DNA of 41,219 nucleotides from Pseudomonadota bacterium (GTDB lineage: Bacteria; Pseudomonadota; Gammaproteobacteria; Acidiferrobacterales; UBA6901): the NCBI GenBank assembly GCA_021819085.1, contig JAKASJ010000026.1, positions 1 to 41,219 on the forward strand, written 5' to 3'. Of this stretch, positions 17,790 through 38,979 are shown one piece after another (the stretch's first letter is position 1; every line of letters begins with the position of its first letter). The notes under the pieces are model-generated. The model saw only the letters and a list, made by a program, of their open reading frames with translations, was not told the origin of the DNA and did no database searches. A program made the position numbers and the translations under genes.

Positions 17790-17939
17790 CGCTGCCTCGC
17801 GCCGTGATGACCATCCGTGCACTCCCGCGCCTGCAGATCGCGTACATACTGTTGAGAAACCGAGGGAAGATCGCTGCGCCGGTTAAGCAACACTACCTGC
17901 GCTCTTGCGTCATGGGCAATAGCCCGGGGTGGTCGAAAG

Positions 17940-17957
17940 CGGAGTGGGTGGTATAAT
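17940..17957 (+). promoter_or_regulatory. Extended -10 promoter for ligase gene
   Basis: TGGTATAAT (17949-17957) gives a perfect TATAAT with the upstream TG of an extended -10. A -35 box is weak or absent. Transcription would start near 17964, about 90 bases before the ligase ATG at 18055. That also argues against using the in-frame start at 17929. Confidence 0.4.
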
Positions 17958-18054
17958 CGCGAAGGTACGTCGCCGCCGTACCCGCGATACCGGCTTGATT
18001 TCGATCTTTCAGGATGATGCTGGTACCGCCACACAATCCCAAGATGAGGGGCTC

Positions 18055-19413
18055 ATGGCCAGTTTCCCGCCGGACCTGATGGATCCCGCCGACACCGACG
18101 CAGCGAATGCCATGCGGGACCTTTATGCCGTCAAGATCCGGTCGATCTGGACCGCGGTCAAGCACGAGCCTCTGTCGTTCTGGGCCATCAATCTGTACCT
18201 GCTTTTTGAGTATGTCCGGCCGCAGACGTCCTATCCGTCTATCGACATTCTTCCCTGGGATAAGGTGGTCTTGGTCATCGCGCTCATTGCGCTGTTCGGC
18301 GAACGGCGCGCAGTAGCGGTCAGAAACGGTGCCGACAAGCTGATGGGGCTCTTTCTAATTGCCGTGCTTGTCTCTTCCGCGTTCGCCGCGTATGCCGGAA
18401 TTTCGTTCTCGCATCTCAGCGAATTCACCGACTGGCTGGTAATCTATTTTCTCATAACCCGGATCGTCACCACGGAAAGGCGGTTCTTCATCTTTTATCT
18501 CGCCTTTCTTATCTACAATTTCAAGATGTCCCTGCACGGTTTTCGGACCTGGGCGGGACGCGGGTTTGCCTGGGAGAACTGGGGCGTGACCGGGGCTCCC
18601 GGGTGGTTCCAGAATTCGGGCGAATTCGGAATCGAGCTGTGCATCTTTTTTCCCCTCTGCTACTACTTCATCGCCGCGCTATGGCAAAACTGGGGGCGCG
18701 TAAAACGACTGTTTTTCCTGGCTTTTCCGTTTACGGCGGTCGCCTCGATTGCCGCCACGTCCTCGCGAGGCGCGGCGCTCGGCATCGCCGGTGCCGTTGT
18801 GTTCATGACGATGCAGAGCCGTCACCGCATCAAGGCCATAGCCTTCGCCGCCGCAGTTCTGGCCGCCCTTTACTTCCTCATTCCGCCGCAGTCCTTGGCA
18901 CGCTTCTATACCGCCGGCACTGATAAGACGTCGGTAGAACGGCTTGTGCGCTGGAAGGACGGGCTGAACATGCTCAGCAATCATCCTTTTTTCGGGATCG
19001 GCTACTTCAACTGGGACAAGTATTATGCGTCCCATTATTCCACAGTGACCGGACACTACGGTCTTCCCCATAATATATTCATCCAGGCTGGTGCCGAACT
19101 CGGCATTTTCGGCCTTGGTGCATTCGGCATGCTGATCGTCGCGACCTTTGTGAACAACTACAAGACGCGGAAGCTCGTGCCAAAATCCGAAAACCCGTTT
19201 CTGTACACTACCGCACTCGGACTGGATGCGGCGATGATCGGGTTTCTCGTGAGCGGCTCGTTCATTACGGTACTCTATTATCCCTACTTCTGGATCGATC
19301 TGTCCCTGGTCGTGGCCCTCAGGACAGTGGCCAAGCAGGCCGCCCAGCGTGCTCCAGCGCCACCGTGGTATGCGGCTCCCGAATTCATCGATCCCGTGCC
19401 GCCGGCAATTTGA
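18055..19413 (+). CDS. O-antigen ligase/polymerase family membrane protein
   Basis: The 452-residue protein has about ten hydrophobic segments and the conserved periplasmic loop of the Wzy_C/O-antigen ligase family: VERLVRWKDGLNMLSNHPFF, GIGYFNW, then HYGLPHNIFIQAGAELGIFG with the conserved His. An Arg in TSSRGAALG is also typical. It would polymerise or transfer lipid-linked units at the periplasmic face. XrtA loci carry a ligase family of this kind (TIGR03097), and the sequence FEYVRPQTSYPSIDILPWDK resembles it. The ATG at 18055 has a GAGGGG site; the longer frame starts upstream of the predicted promoter -10. The gene is followed by the ATP-grasp gene after about 75 bases. Confidence 0.88.
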   Translation: MASFPPDLMDPADTDAANAMRDLYAVKIRSIWTAVKHEPLSFWAINLYLLFEYVRPQTSYPSIDILPWDKVVLVIALIALFGERRAVAVRNGADKLMGLFLIAVLVSSAFAAYAGISFSHLSEFTDWLVIYFLITRIVTTERRFFIFYLAFLIYNFKMSLHGFRTWAGRGFAWENWGVTGAPGWFQNSGEFGIELCIFFPLCYYFIAALWQNWGRVKRLFFLAFPFTAVASIAATSSRGAALGIAGAVVFMTMQSRHRIKAIAFAAAVLAALYFLIPPQSLARFYTAGTDKTSVERLVRWKDGLNMLSNHPFFGIGYFNWDKYYASHYSTVTGHYGLPHNIFIQAGAELGIFGLGAFGMLIVATFVNNYKTRKLVPKSENPFLYTTALGLDAAMIGFLVSGSFITVLYYPYFWIDLSLVVALRTVAKQAAQRAPAPPWYAAPEFIDPVPPAI

Positions 19414-29182: not shown

Positions 29183-29726
29183 GCGGCTATTTGAACAACC
29201 CACGGCTGTGATTCCTTTGCGGCGGCAGCTCATGCAGATGATCCGAAGCCATTACCGCGCTCCGGTGACTGAATTGCGGCAGATCCCGGACACTCGCTTG
29301 TTACAGCACGCCGATTCCTGACCTGAAACCTGTCAGCGGGGCGTCCACCTGCTTGCGGTGGAACCGGCATTGAAGACAGCTGCAGTTGTCTGATGTCCGG
29401 CACCGCCCTATACTTTTCCGGTGCAATGCCCCGAGACCCTGATCGGAGACCGCAGCAATGGGAAAATGCAGGTGTCCGGCCGAGCACCTCTGGCAACGCA
29501 CGAGAAGAGCGGTGAAATCCGTCCCGCATTTGCCACCAACCAGCCCGTATGACCGTACCACCATGTCCGCAACTCGCATTCATGTCATGCCTCCCGTCCA
29601 CTACCCATGCGGCATTGCGGATAGCCCGGCGCTGTCTCGCCGTCGGTATCGCGGCCCTGCCACGGCACAGGCCCGCAGACGTGAGGTATGGCAGACTTTG
29701 CTCCGGATCACGCCGGTGTCACTCCG
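29183..29726. other. Divergent intergenic region
   Basis: These roughly 544 bases separate the GT4 gene (minus) from the deacetylase (plus). No gene or RNA was recognised. An inverted repeat with a 6-base stem (TCCACC/GGTGGA, 29344-29362) is present. Short open frames here show no protein features. A sigma-54-like match near 29690 has wrong spacing. Confidence 0.4.
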
Positions 29727-30761
29727 ATGAACCTGCGAACGGCCAAAGTCGCAGTGAAGCGCATAGCCGAGTTCGCCACAGCCAAAACTGCGCCACTGCT
29801 TTGGCACAGACGCCGTGGTTCGCTGGTCGTCCTCATGTATCACAGGGTACTCCCGCCCGGCGATCCGCGCCTGGAAGTGGAGCAGCCGGGAATGTATGTG
29901 CACCCGGCAACCCTGCACCTCCATCTGAGGACACTCAAACGCCACTTTCAGCCGGTTCGGCTTGACCATTGGATCCGTGCGGCACGCGATAACGCGCCCC
30001 TGCCCGAACGCGCATTTGCCATCACTTTCGACGACGGGTGGGCCGACAATTTCGAATACGCGTATCCGCTGCTGGTCGCGGAAAACGTACCGGCGACGAT
30101 TTTCGTGGTCTCCGACCTGGTGGGCACCGGACGTCTTTTCTGGCCGGAACGTCTGGGAACCCTGCTGCGGCAGGGTCTGGCGCAGCACGCTGCGAAACTC
30201 TATTCCCTCAGCGAGTTCGCGTGGCTGCGCACTCTCGACATGCCAATTCCGTCATCAGAGCGGGAACTCGACCCCGAACTGCTGGATCGCATCGTCAACG
30301 GTGCCAAACGCGATGACGACGCAACGCTGTGTGCGCGCGTCGAGGCCATGGCCGCACGTCTCGGCGACAGCGGATCGCCCCGGACTGCCGAGCTTCTGAG
30401 CTGGGACCAGATCCGTGAGATGGCCGGCAGCGGGCTGGTCTCGATCGGCTCACACACGCGCCGGCACACGCGGTTATCCGATGCCTTGACTCCCGAAACG
30501 CTGCATGACGAGATCGCCGGATCCAGGCACATCATCGAAAGCAACGCCGGCTGCGAGGCTCCGCTATTCTGCTATCCCAACGGAGACGCCACCGCCAACG
30601 TGCGCTCAATAGTCTCGGAACACTATCAGGCGGCATGTTCGACGCTGCCCGGCTGGCACGGCGTCGGCGCAGACCATTACATGATCCGACGGATTTCGGT
30701 GCACCAGGACATCACCTGCGACGAGACCTCTTTGCTCGCAAGACTTTCCGGTTGGATCTAG
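29727..30761 (+). CDS. Polysaccharide deacetylase (NodB family)
   Basis: The protein (about 344 residues) has a NodB homology domain: VVLMYHRVLPP, then FAITFDDGWADNF (the catalytic Asp-Asp, motif 1), the metal-ligand motif IGSHTRRHTRLS (H-x3-H, motif 2), and FCYPNGDAT. It would remove N- or O-acyl groups from the glycan or precursor. The region between motifs (LFWPERLGTLL through the Glu/Asp-rich stretch) resembles a family of EPS-locus deacetylases. No signal peptide was seen, so a cytosolic or membrane-edge role is possible. ATG 29727 was chosen; ATG 29688 has a GAGG only two bases away. Its last 50 bases overlap the phosphatase gene tail to tail. Confidence 0.85.
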   Translation: MNLRTAKVAVKRIAEFATAKTAPLLWHRRRGSLVVLMYHRVLPPGDPRLEVEQPGMYVHPATLHLHLRTLKRHFQPVRLDHWIRAARDNAPLPERAFAITFDDGWADNFEYAYPLLVAENVPATIFVVSDLVGTGRLFWPERLGTLLRQGLAQHAAKLYSLSEFAWLRTLDMPIPSSERELDPELLDRIVNGAKRDDDATLCARVEAMAARLGDSGSPRTAELLSWDQIREMAGSGLVSIGSHTRRHTRLSDALTPETLHDEIAGSRHIIESNAGCEAPLFCYPNGDATANVRSIVSEHYQAACSTLPGWHGVGADHYMIRRISVHQDITCDETSLLARLSGWI

Positions 30762-31425
30762 ATTCCGGAACACCGCCGATGGGGACAGATCCGTCCCCGA
30801 CCTGCTCCAGGATGCCGGCAACACCGGCATCGATGCGTGCATAGCACGTTTGGAAATAGCTGTCGCCGCAGCCGTATGGATCGGCAATATACGGTTCCGG
30901 TCGACCGCCCCAGAGTCCAAGCAGTGTGATCTGAGCCTGCGAATTGCGCACGCGCCCGATATGCTTCAGGCGCCGCGCCTGCCAAGGTTCCATTCCGATG
31001 ATCAGATCCTCCGGGCCGATGTCGAGATCGTCTATGCTCCGGACCGAATGGCCTGTGAGATCGACTCCTCGCCGTTTGGCGTTGCGGATGGCATCGGGAT
31101 TGGCACTTCCACCGGACATAGGTCTCAGGCCGGCCGAAATAACTGGTCCCCGGAACCCGGCCGCCACCGCTTCCGCATACGGGCTGCGGCAGATGTTTCC
31201 CATGCATACGAATACCAGACGTTTTACCCGTGGCCAATCGATGCGCTCGAACTTTCGCCAGAACCCGATGCGATATGCCAGTAAATAGGGGTAGTACGCA
31301 GCCATCGCCCGCTTGCGCCCATGTCGCTGCGCGATCTGCTGTGACCATTTCTTCCACAACGGCAGGTGCGCCGACGCGTCAGCTGAACGTCGGCCCGGGA
31401 CCGGGGGATTGGTATTTGCCGTCAC
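30712..31425 (-). CDS. Low-molecular-weight protein-tyrosine phosphatase-like protein
   Basis: The 237-residue protein has the LMW-PTP P-loop FVCMGNICRSPYAEA, in which Cys74 and Arg80 form the CX5R catalytic site, followed by the second motif SAGLRPMSGG. A DPYGCGDSYF segment near the C-terminal side supplies the general-acid Asp. It could dephosphorylate tyrosine sites of EPS regulators; note that the BY-kinase-like protein of this locus lacks the usual Tyr cluster. An N-terminal extension of about 65 residues (HLPLWKKWSQQIAQRHGRKRA and onwards) precedes the domain. Start GTG 31425 overlaps the preceding stop by four bases (GTGA) and has an AGGA site; the internal ATG at 31305 is an alternative. 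The C-terminal tail is very basic. Confidence 0.86.
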   Translation of the reverse strand: MTANTNPPVPGRRSADASAHLPLWKKWSQQIAQRHGRKRAMAAYYPYLLAYRIGFWRKFERIDWPRVKRLVFVCMGNICRSPYAEAVAAGFRGPVISAGLRPMSGGSANPDAIRNAKRRGVDLTGHSVRSIDDLDIGPEDLIIGMEPWQARRLKHIGRVRNSQAQITLLGLWGGRPEPYIADPYGCGDSYFQTCYARIDAGVAGILEQVGDGSVPIGGVPESRSNRKVLRAKRSRRR

Positions 31426-32489
31426 GAATTGCGCGTCCTGGAACGGAGCCAGTCCTTCGAACGAAGCCAATTCTTCCCCCACTCGATCCATGTGCTGTAC
31501 TGCAGGAAGTCCTCCAGCGTCTCCGGAAACACAAACCGGTCAATCCGTCGCGGCAGGTCGATACGCTTTGTATTCTCGCAGGATTGAACATAGCCTGCAT
31601 CCGACGTGACAAACGTCGATAGCCCGGCATCACGCAGAAATCCGACCTCGCGCGTTCCAAAAATCCCGCTGGGAAAATTGAAAACGGGCAATGGATCGTC
31701 CAGCTCGCGGCAGACCCGCTGCCAGGAACCCGTGATCTCGCTGCGCGCCAGATCGTCCGGCATGCCCGTCAGGATACGATGGCTTACCGAGTGCGGCGCG
31801 AAGGAGAAAAGCCCGGTGCGCTCGAGCGCCCTGGCTTCGTCCCAGGTCATGGGCGCGTATGCGCGTGGCGCGGACTGCGGGATCCCCACACCGGTCGCTT
31901 CAGACAGTCCTGCGAGCACGGCAAGAAACTCGGTGTGCTCCATCAACTTGCAGCGCAGACGCAGATCGTCGATGGCACGGGTACGCTGCGCATCGGTGCG
32001 GAGATCATATGACAGCATCGTTGATCCGGTCCGGATCGCCACCGAAGTGTGCGCAGTATTTCTGAGCGCATACGCCACCTGATCGTCCCACGGCCACAGC
32101 ATACGGTCGATGAAACCCGTGATCAGGAAGATCGTGGCCGGGCAATCATAGTGCCCGAACAAGGGCGCCGCGATTGCCGCCTGATCGTAGCTACCGTCAT
32201 CGAACGTAAACGCCACGCAGTGATCCTTCGAGGACACATCGCAATCCTGACTGGCAATCAGATCCCGGAGCGATACGAGTCGGCAGTTCTGGTGCCGAAG
32301 GCGCTGCAACACGGTTTCCACGAACGCTACGGAGTGGCCGGGCATGCCCCGCGCCGGATCTTCGAAGCGGTGCATCATGAACACCGTTCCGAGGCATCCG
32401 GTCAAAGAATTGAATAGCGTGCATACCCTCGGATGCGCCAGCGTGCGGATGGTCGCCTGTTTCAAGATGCTCTTTGTCCGCCGGATCAC
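31422..32489 (-). CDS. Polysaccharide deacetylase (NodB family)
   Basis: The 355-residue protein has VFMMHRFEDP, the catalytic FTFDDGSYDQA, metal-ligand APHSVSHRILTG (H-x3-H) and VFNFPSGIFGTREVGFLRDAG, which keeps the Arg/Asp of motif 3 to 4. It is a second member of the same family as the gene at 29727, with clear differences. Translation starts at GTG 32487-32489 after an AAGGG site. The promoter region 32517-32538 lies immediately upstream. It is coupled to the phosphatase gene through the GTGA overlap at 31422-31425. Substrate acyl group unknown. Confidence 0.85.
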   Translation of the reverse strand: MIRRTKSILKQATIRTLAHPRVCTLFNSLTGCLGTVFMMHRFEDPARGMPGHSVAFVETVLQRLRHQNCRLVSLRDLIASQDCDVSSKDHCVAFTFDDGSYDQAAIAAPLFGHYDCPATIFLITGFIDRMLWPWDDQVAYALRNTAHTSVAIRTGSTMLSYDLRTDAQRTRAIDDLRLRCKLMEHTEFLAVLAGLSEATGVGIPQSAPRAYAPMTWDEARALERTGLFSFAPHSVSHRILTGMPDDLARSEITGSWQRVCRELDDPLPVFNFPSGIFGTREVGFLRDAGLSTFVTSDAGYVQSCENTKRIDLPRRIDRFVFPETLEDFLQYSTWIEWGKNWLRSKDWLRSRTRNS

Positions 32490-32516
32490 CGTAAGCCCTT
32501 AAGCCGAATTACCGGG

Positions 32517-32538
32517 ATTATAGCAAGATATATGCCAA
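32517..32538 (-). promoter_or_regulatory. Sigma-54-type promoter overlapping a sigma-70 extended -10
   Basis: Reading the minus strand, TGGCATATATCTTGCT (32537-32522) matches the RpoN consensus TGGCAYR-N4-TTGCW at every position, with the GG and GC exactly 10 bases apart. It is directly continuous with TATAAT (32522-32517), giving TGCTATAAT, an extended -10 for sigma-70. The transcription start from either form would fall near 32510, about 20 bases before the deacetylase GTG. The -35 side for sigma-70 is poor (TTCAGG at 16 bases). EPS genes of XrtA loci have been reported to be RpoN-controlled through PrsK/PrsR; neither gene is in this window. Confidence 0.65.
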
Positions 32539-32740
32539 CCTGAATCCCTGGAACCACCTCGTACCGATGGTGCCCTTTCCTCTCCGAAATAGGCATGTCC
32601 TGTGCGACTGACGATGGTAACAGGCCACCCCGTCCCATCGCCCGCCGCGCTCCGGCGCAACAGCCGGAACATCCTGGACCTAATGCGGACCCGGGAGAAC
32701 CATTGTCTGGCCCGTCTCATGTCTCGCGCGCCGCCGGCAC

Positions 32741-33610
32741 CTAGCGGCGATAGAGCGTGGTCCATTCGTTGAAATCCCGCCCGAGCATGGCTCTTATCCC
32801 TTCGGTCTTTTCGAGCAGAATCGGCCTCAGATAGCGTTCCACGGCGGCAACGTCCTGTGACGCGTGATCCACGCGTCGCTCTGCTAGCCGGGTCCCGATT
32901 TGCCGCAGACTCCGCGGAACCATCGGCGCCAAGCTGTCCCATGCCTGTGAATAGCGGAGACGGTTGAGAATCCCGAAACCGCCCACGCGCTTTGCCTCCG
33001 CAGGCGCCGCGTTCCAGCGTCTGCGTGTGCCTTCCGGCCGGAACCCGCTGTCCACCCGCAACCAATCGAAAATTTCCCGCAACACATCATCCGGATTTCC
33101 GACCATGTGCTCGAATGTCGTCGTATACACGCGTTCGCGTCCGAAAATATCGATATAAGGCCTCAGCTGCATCGCATAGTCGCTGAACGCGACGTACTGA
33201 GGATCGCGCCTGACGGCAGACAGCATGCTACGCCATTCCCGACCCCACTTCATGTCGCGCACGTTGTGCCAGTAATGGCTGATGGCGCGCTCGACGGGAT
33301 CGCGCATCAGATAGATGAAGCGCGCATCGGGATTGAATCTGGCGATGCGCTCTGGCACGCCCTTGTAGACCGGCAGCTTCGTGTAATGAGTACTGGATTC
33401 GCCCAGGACGACCGCACCGTTCGCCTGCGCGAACAGGCTGCGGTACCATTCGTACCCCTTGGGCCACGCCAGTTCCTCAACGAAGAATCCCGGCTCTTTC
33501 GGCTCGCACATAAATATGGCGGGATGCTCGTTGAGATAGTTGTGCAATGATGTCGTGCCCGATTTCATCGCACCGATGATAAACAGGTTTACATTCGGTG
33601 ATTCCTGCAT
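32741..33610 (-). CDS. PAPS-dependent sulfotransferase
   Basis: The 289-residue protein has both PAPS-binding motifs of cytosolic/Golgi-type sulfotransferases: IIGAMKSGTTSLHNYL (5'-phosphosulfate loop, Lys16) and FIYLMRDPVERAISHYWH (3'-phosphate loop, Arg103 and Ser111). It should transfer sulfate from PAPS to an alcohol of the glycan. ATG 33610 was chosen because of GAGGTG just upstream; a GTG at 33682 would add 24 residues. No TM segment is evident, so sulfation would occur on lipid-linked units at the cytosolic face. It follows the flippase gene on the same strand. Confidence 0.88.
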   Translation of the reverse strand: MQESPNVNLFIIGAMKSGTTSLHNYLNEHPAIFMCEPKEPGFFVEELAWPKGYEWYRSLFAQANGAVVLGESSTHYTKLPVYKGVPERIARFNPDARFIYLMRDPVERAISHYWHNVRDMKWGREWRSMLSAVRRDPQYVAFSDYAMQLRPYIDIFGRERVYTTTFEHMVGNPDDVLREIFDWLRVDSGFRPEGTRRRWNAAPAEAKRVGGFGILNRLRYSQAWDSLAPMVPRSLRQIGTRLAERRVDHASQDVAAVERYLRPILLEKTEGIRAMLGRDFNEWTTLYRR

Positions 33611-33690
33611 GGACACCTCGAGAACGCTCTGCCGCCCGGGAACTGGATTGAATGACGCGGTTATTGCCCTGGCCAAGGACACCTTCGGAC

Positions 33691-37998: not shown

Positions 37999-38979
37999 CT
38001 ATCGGCTTGCAGAACCGGAATCCAGCGGCTGGCTGGTGTTTTGCGGGTCCGACCCTGCCTCGGGCCACAGACCCATCTCGCCGAGGCTGTCGCATACTGT
38101 CCCGAAACGGAACTCAGCCAGCAGCCGGTTCAGCATGGATTCGCACTTCGCGAGATTAGTGTAATGCCGGAAACGCGACAGCCGGCTCGCGCGGATCCGC
38201 GGCTGATCAGGATCGATCTCCCACGGATGCAGGTAGAAAATGAACGGAATTCCCTCGCTACGGTTGATGCTTGCGAGCGCCCTGCGCGTAACCGCGTAGG
38301 GAAGAAGCCTGAAATAGCCACCGCCCGCAACAGGTAAACGCAGGAATCCGAGGTCCTTGGTGCTGAGCGGGAACTCCAGCAGGCTCGCGCCGCCCGCACC
38401 ACGCAGCCAGTGCGGTCGGCGGGCAGCTCCTGGAATACCGTAACGGTCATGCCGGATCGGAAATATGCTCGAATCGTACCGGAAACCCAATTCGGCAAGG
38501 ATATCGATGGCCCACAGGGATCTGGCGGTAATCGAATAGCTGGCAGCACGGTATCCATTGACGGGTGCCTGGACAATGTCTTCCAGAAGCGCCTTTGCGG
38601 TCTTGGTTTCATCGTGGAATTCGCGCGGCGTCTGCTCGTACACAAGCCTGTGAGTGAGCCCGTGGCAGGCAATCTCATGCCCGGCATCCGCAATTTCACG
38701 CACCAGGCCGGGATAGCGGCTGGCGACCCAGCCGAGCACGAAGAACGTTGCCTTGACCTTATGGCATGCCAGCATCCCGAGCAACTTGCGGGTGTTGTTT
38801 TCGACGCGGCATTCGTAGCGGTCCCAAAGTGACCGATCGATGACTTTCGCAAAGGCCGAAACATGGAAGTAATCTTCCACATCCACGGTCATGGCGTTCG
38901 TGATCGATACTGGGCCGGCCCCGGCAACGCCTGGCTCCAGGGACTTCGCTGGGTCACTGAGCAGATCGGTCATTCGCAT
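37999..38979 (-). CDS. XrtA-system polysaccharide deacetylase (TIGR03006-like)
   Basis: The 326-residue protein opens its domain with TVDVEDYFHVSAFAKVID, the hallmark of the XrtA-system deacetylase family, and keeps the Asp-x-Glu-Asp in place of TFDDG. Motif 2 is HEIACHGLTHRLVY (H-x3-H). RAASYSITARSLWAIDILAELGFRYDSSIFP and LEFPLSTKDLGFLRLPVAGGGYFR follow. The end HPWEIDPDQPRIRASRLSRFRHY is also family-typical. It should remove N-acetyl groups from EPS hexosamine. No obvious signal peptide. It is the third deacetylase in the window and the one most like the XrtA family; it forms a pair with FemAB. Confidence 0.9.
   Translation of the reverse strand: MRMTDLLSDPAKSLEPGVAGAGPVSITNAMTVDVEDYFHVSAFAKVIDRSLWDRYECRVENNTRKLLGMLACHKVKATFFVLGWVASRYPGLVREIADAGHEIACHGLTHRLVYEQTPREFHDETKTAKALLEDIVQAPVNGYRAASYSITARSLWAIDILAELGFRYDSSIFPIRHDRYGIPGAARRPHWLRGAGGASLLEFPLSTKDLGFLRLPVAGGGYFRLLPYAVTRRALASINRSEGIPFIFYLHPWEIDPDQPRIRASRLSRFRHYTNLAKCESMLNRLLAEFRFGTVCDSLGEMGLWPEAGSDPQNTSQPLDSGSASR

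Follow-up and report, generated by a model that had tools for sequence, protein, structure and literature searches.

Promoters in which sigma-54 and sigma-70 sites overlap are already known, and Escherichia coli glmY provides the precedent. The sequence 5' of the glmY start is TTGGCACAGTTACTGCATAATAG, in which the GC of the -12 element continues into a -10-like hexamer. According to PMC6075780, glmY carries three TGTN12ACA activator sites that are bound by QseF/GlrR with the assistance of IHF, and binding of sigma-54 usually represses its weak, overlapping sigma-70 promoter. For Salmonella glmY and glmZ, the sigma-70 and sigma-54 promoters are reported to overlap fully, with the polymerases competing; loss of rpoN left glmY transcription at a similar level and increased that of glmZ (PMC3844500). 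Repression of overlapping sigma-70 promoters by sigma-54 has also been described, all such motifs having a C at -12 (PMC4551910). Other relevant systems are the sigma-54 promoters of PEP-CTERM genes described by Haft et al. 2006, where a 17-nt motif ending in TTTACA (motif 1, the PrsR box) lies 32-92 nt upstream of the sigma-54 site (PMC1569441), and the class II pilE promoter of Neisseria meningitidis (PMC6755734).

Overlapping elements upstream of a deacetylase gene

The window (i.e., the whole stretch of 41,219 nt that was analysed) is an XrtA-type EPS cluster, and the site described here, which is probably a further case of the known overlapping kind, lies in a gap between a sulfotransferase gene and a polysaccharide deacetylase gene that is likely co-transcribed with the phosphatase gene following it (Table 1). 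On the minus strand, TGGCATATATCTTGCT occupies positions 32537-32522, TGC 32525-32523, and TATAAT 32522-32517, with the final T of the first serving as the initial T of the last. The GG at 32536-32535 and the GC at 32524-32523, with N10 between them, reproduce the exact -24/-12 form of a sigma-54 element, and the TG located one base 5' of TATAAT is in the register of an extended -10. The coordinates and register given in the initial annotation, which did not name the strand, are correct, as are its descriptions of a full RpoN consensus (the site matches TGGCAYRNNNNTTGCW at each specified position) and of a sigma-54 element running directly into TATAAT with the TG of an extended -10.

Table 1. 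Promoter elements and genes at the deacetylase locus, in window coordinates.
Feature	Position	Strand	Remarks
Sigma-54 -24/-12 element TGGCATATATCTTGCT	32522..32537	-	Exact consensus match; best in the window; ChIP-seq binding at a near-identical E. coli site
Sigma-70 extended -10 TGCTATAAT	32517..32525	-	Exact match, with one other in the window; without a good -35
Predicted common transcription start (A)	32510	-	Placed 7 nt past the -10 hexamer; glmY-like spacing from the sigma-54 site
Weak candidate enhancer dyad TCCGGCTGTTGCGCCGGA	32651..32668	-	6-nt perfect arms
Polysaccharide deacetylase, 355 aa, GTG start	31422..32489	-	Pfam PF01522, E 1.2e-12; start common to four orthologues
Low-molecular-weight tyrosine phosphatase	30712..31491	-	Pfam PF01451, E 1.1e-20; overlaps the deacetylase end
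Sulfotransferase, upstream of the deacetylase	32741..33682	-	Pfam PF13469, E 1.6e-20; 251-nt gap between

Judged by their spacing, the sigma-54 and sigma-70 elements would share a start at 32510, which would leave a 21-nt leader before the deacetylase GTG (32489); an AAGG-type ribosome site falls within this stretch, and such a short leader fits the predicted start. The earlier placement of the site about 20 bases before the gene is apt for the predicted transcription start and inaccurate for the -10 hexamer, which ends 27 nt before the GTG.

The geometry is nearly identical to that of glmY (TTGGCACAGTTACTGCATAAT): the distance from the site to the predicted start equals that in glmY, and in both cases the GC of the -12 element leads directly into a -10-like hexamer (TGCATAAT in glmY, TGCTATAAT here), although the hexamer is offset by one base and is perfect only here. 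Both loci are tied to cell-envelope sugar functions, but glmY is a small RNA, whereas the transcript here would be an mRNA, and no convincing counterpart of the three glmY activator sites was found in the deacetylase upstream region. The C at -12 common to the repressing motifs is present. Like the promoters of Haft et al. 2006, this one places a sigma-54 site before a gene, in a genome of XrtA/PEP-CTERM type that also encodes PrsR; unlike those promoters as described there, it has no motif 1, no PEP-CTERM product, and an overlapping sigma-70 element. The pilE promoter similarly combines a -12/-24 site with a sigma-70 promoter, but its two elements do not overlap, and RpoN is reported to be atypical and dispensable for pilE expression (PMC6755734).

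We consider it somewhat better than an even chance that basal transcription of the deacetylase-phosphatase unit comes from a sigma-70 extended -10 promoter, that a strong sigma-54 site overlaps this promoter, and that the two polymerases compete there, with activation by a protein other than PrsR possible. Sigma-70 polymerase would start at the extended -10, providing basal expression. The bases of this element double as part of a near-consensus sigma-54 site, so sigma-54 polymerase should also bind there, presumably as a closed complex. In the absence of an activator it would compete with and dampen the sigma-70 promoter, and an activator, if one acts here, would add sigma-54-driven transcription. 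The initial annotation had proposed two modes of expression from one start region; this is a sound reading of the sequence with a precedent in glmY, tempered by the failure of all four relatives (see below) to conserve the site. If both polymerases use the site, a gene for EPS modification would join the few documented overlapping sigma-54/sigma-70 promoters, and an rpoN mutant by itself could look unchanged. Since Salmonella glmY is reported to be unaffected by rpoN, unchanged expression in an rpoN mutant would be a weak refutation.

Strength of the two promoter matches

The deacetylase-upstream site is the sole exact match to TGGCAYRNNNNTTGCW in the window. Sigma-54-like sites with up to two mismatches are in no excess (17 versus 19.6 expected), which leaves the full match as the distinctive one. 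Measured by a matrix derived from 50 intergenic ChIP-seq sites of E. coli (PMC4591121), the site has a score of 19.9 bits and outscores 49 of those 50 sites under leave-one-out scoring. The window runner-up, inside an open frame, reaches 15.3 bits, in agreement with the initial annotation, which had found no comparably good site elsewhere in the window. A Markov model of the window yields a score this high at a rate of 3.3e-7 per position (a single hit in 3 million positions), equivalent to rough expectations of ~8e-5 for one strand of a 251-nt gap and ~0.03 for both strands of the whole window, and a Markov model of the gap itself produced no such score in 3 million positions. The sigma-54 match is unexpected by chance within one 251-nt gap. 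In vivo, sigma-54 is reported to occupy the nearly identical E. coli sequence CTGGCATATATTTTGCC strongly (PMC4591121 Table 1, OA05; fold above threshold 61); that sequence faces away from genes and lacks a following TATAAT.

The sigma-70 element is less distinctive. Exact TGNTATAAT occurs twice in the window, matches with up to one mismatch number 10 versus 9.7 expected, and the expectation for an extended -10 is ~1e-3 to 1.5e-3 per 251-nt gap. On these counts an extended -10 promoter is plausible, aided by its position, and unremarkable across the whole window. The -35 region is poor (TTCAGG, three of six bases matching, spacer 16), and for that reason only the extended -10 reading works. The other exact TGNTATAAT is on the plus strand at 17949-17957, 20 nt inside the longest ORF of an O-ligase-like gene (17929-19413) whose true start may be farther downstream than 17929.

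The main rival explanation holds that the sigma-70 extended -10 alone works, that an AT-rich promoter contains the sigma-54 match by coincidence, and that RpoN is uninvolved. In its favor, TGCTATAAT by itself would already contain part of a -12 element, which would leave the two matches non-independent. Such a coincidence would nevertheless have to account for a sigma-54 match that is far above background and in the correct place and orientation, and a sequence of this kind should bind sigma-54 regardless of its history. We regard this rival as fairly unlikely, and further evidence on it comes from the rest of the genome and from relatives.

Sigma-54 sites in the genome and the PrsR box

The genome encodes RpoN (C54, 491 bits) and contains 24 exact matches to the sigma-54 consensus versus six for the reversed pattern. 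The deacetylase-upstream site ranks second among the 24 by matrix score, or third when the matrix is built without the near-identical E. coli site. Downstream proteins were scanned with Pfam for 20 of the 23 other exact matches. The genes identified include typical RpoN targets (fliL, fliK, and those of a flagellar rod protein and a FleQ-like activator) and an ANTAR regulator, and other matches precede unrelated genes (e.g., integrase, ankyrin repeats) or no convincing gene. For L006, also among the 20, Pfam gave no match, yet the protein has a PEP-CTERM-like end by eye. The flagellar-type targets together with the unrelated neighbors indicate that the usual sigma-54 sites exist in this genome and that some exact matches are due to chance. 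The reversed control puts the latter at ~6 of the 24, a point in favor of coincidence at the deacetylase site as well.

The high rank of the site is also what would be expected of a plain sigma-54 promoter, tightly dependent on an activator, in which TATAAT is merely an AT-rich start region, and A/T-rich DNA does follow some other sigma-54 sites (e.g., TGGCATATGAATTGCTATTGT at C73:33773). However, sigma-70 would be expected to recognize a perfect TGNTATAAT, and the enhancer search described below found none upstream, making a plain sigma-54 promoter quite improbable. The TGGCATATGAATTGCTATTGT locus (G000:C73:33773-33793, L021) is the sigma-54 site most similar to that of the deacetylase; a perfect palindrome, CTACAAAATTTGTAG, lies ~90 nt upstream of it and an NtrC-type activator gene (L026) is ~2 kb away.

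According to the initial annotation, the deacetylase/phosphatase pair is linked to control of the RpoN-PrsR type reported for XrtA EPS genes. On this view, PrsK-PrsR and RpoN would control the deacetylase gene along with PEP-CTERM genes. A true PrsR is encoded in the genome (C20:98480-99808), far above the model cut-off (719.7 versus 502.6 bits), the window is a cluster of the appropriate type, and an RpoN-dependent PEP-CTERM gene has been reported in Aquincola (PMC9850573). A PrsR box was derived from matches to TTTACA, spacer, and sigma-54 site in this genome and its relatives. Thirteen loci were inspected, six of which (L078, L087, L090, L091, L093, L096) have a GTCG left half before TTTACA at the correct distance, and a PEP-CTERM-like protein end was recognized by eye downstream at five of these. 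The consensus, TGTCGRNANNNTTTACA, was taken from those six loci only, picked by form; L095 was excluded for lack of the left half, though it precedes a PEP-CTERM-like protein. The PEP-CTERM model TIGR02595 identifies a single gene in the genome, at C10.

Upstream of the deacetylase there is no TGTCGRNANNNTTTACA with up to three mismatches. The best match in 222 nt has five, a level equalled or bettered by 81% of 300 random sequences. Because the box is missing there, RpoN-PrsR control of the pair is unsupported, and we consider the proposal very improbable despite the presence of PrsR. Patterns of the NtrC-like, FleQ-like, and TGTN12ACA types were likewise no better than random upstream of the gene. 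GC-rich dyads (e.g., the one in Table 1) number two in 222 nt versus 0.5 expected, which is not significant (reached by 11% of 200 random sequences). The upstream enhancer scan suggested earlier thus returned weak dyads at chance level and no convincing enhancer, a result consistent with sigma-70 acting alone.

Elsewhere in the genome, the locus L006/L078 (G000:C20:38773-38868, minus strand) has a textbook PrsR box and sigma-54 site before a protein ending in VPVPAAVWLLGSGLLGLVGVARRK; this makes the gene a good candidate for control by PrsR, and relatives have counterparts of it (L087, L090, L091, L093). Across the whole window, PrsR-box-like sequences with up to three mismatches number 18 versus 9.0 in shuffles, with none of 100 shuffles having as many, an excess that probably reflects coding composition.

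Conservation in relatives and recurrence of the fusion

Of 60 genomes searched, 22 contain a match of any kind to the deacetylase. Only four besides the source genome (G033, G003, G002, G004) provided orthologues for comparison, at 67-74% protein identity and near full length; a second, partial copy in G033 (L056/L086), weaker homologues, and a 36% identical Nitrospira homologue (L085) were excluded from the upstream comparison. A scan of genome contigs recovered six loci, namely the same four as in the metagenome-assembled genomes, the second copy, and the Nitrospira homologue, and a scan of viral contigs for the deacetylase confirmed no locus. RpoN is present in all four relatives. A phosphatase match is found 3' of the deacetylase in each (just 72 residues in G033, L081), a convergent second deacetylase also follows in each, and the sulfotransferase precedes in three.

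Neither the sigma-54 nor the extended -10 element is conserved upstream of any of the four orthologues. The best sigma-54 scores within 400 nt are 7.1, 4.4, 5.5, and 6.6 (L035-L038), versus 19.9 here, and the best extended -10 in each relative matches six of eight bases; L038 has two sigma-70 candidates elsewhere (9/12 each). In G033, the closest relative, the aligned stretch looks homologous and both elements are gone. Their absence from the four relatives makes the site specific to this lineage, and a single match in one species, absent from relatives with the same flanking genes, does not amount to conserved regulation of XrtA EPS genes. Non-conservation argues against an important shared role, and is a further point for sigma-70 acting alone, but it does not prevent either polymerase from binding the sequence. 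It is also conceivable, though we consider it unlikely, that this is a recent lineage-specific dual promoter at which sigma-54 polymerase, with no dedicated enhancer, would mainly repress the sigma-70 promoter of an EPS-modifying deacetylase and its partner phosphatase, such that the level of RpoN would set polymer modification.

Recurrence of the fused arrangement was also examined. In the source genome, the fused pattern with up to two mismatches occurs 55 times versus 114 for the reversed pattern, and the one exact occurrence is unique. Across 369 genomes of the class, a search for TGGCAYN6TGCTATAAT, covering the exact fusion with its own spacing rather than that of glmY, gave two matches (the source genome included). 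The control counts were three (reversed pattern) and six (permuted hexamer), showing no enrichment. A recurrent class of fused promoters was rejected, given no excess over controls in the source genome or in the 369. The rarity of the exact fusion may be explained by the leakiness that a strong -10 would confer on a sigma-54 promoter.

At ~20-95 nt upstream of the deacetylase orthologue, L036 and L037 contain the palindromes CGACAAAATTTTGTCG and TGCCGCATATGCGGCA, perfect in L037 and near-perfect in L036. These occupy the place of the promoter in the window and constitute a different control region conserved in two genomes of the same genus. The XrtA-type EPS cluster in the window itself contains three different polysaccharide deacetylase genes (29688-30761, 31422-32489, and 37999-38979), two of which flank the phosphatase gene in convergent orientation.
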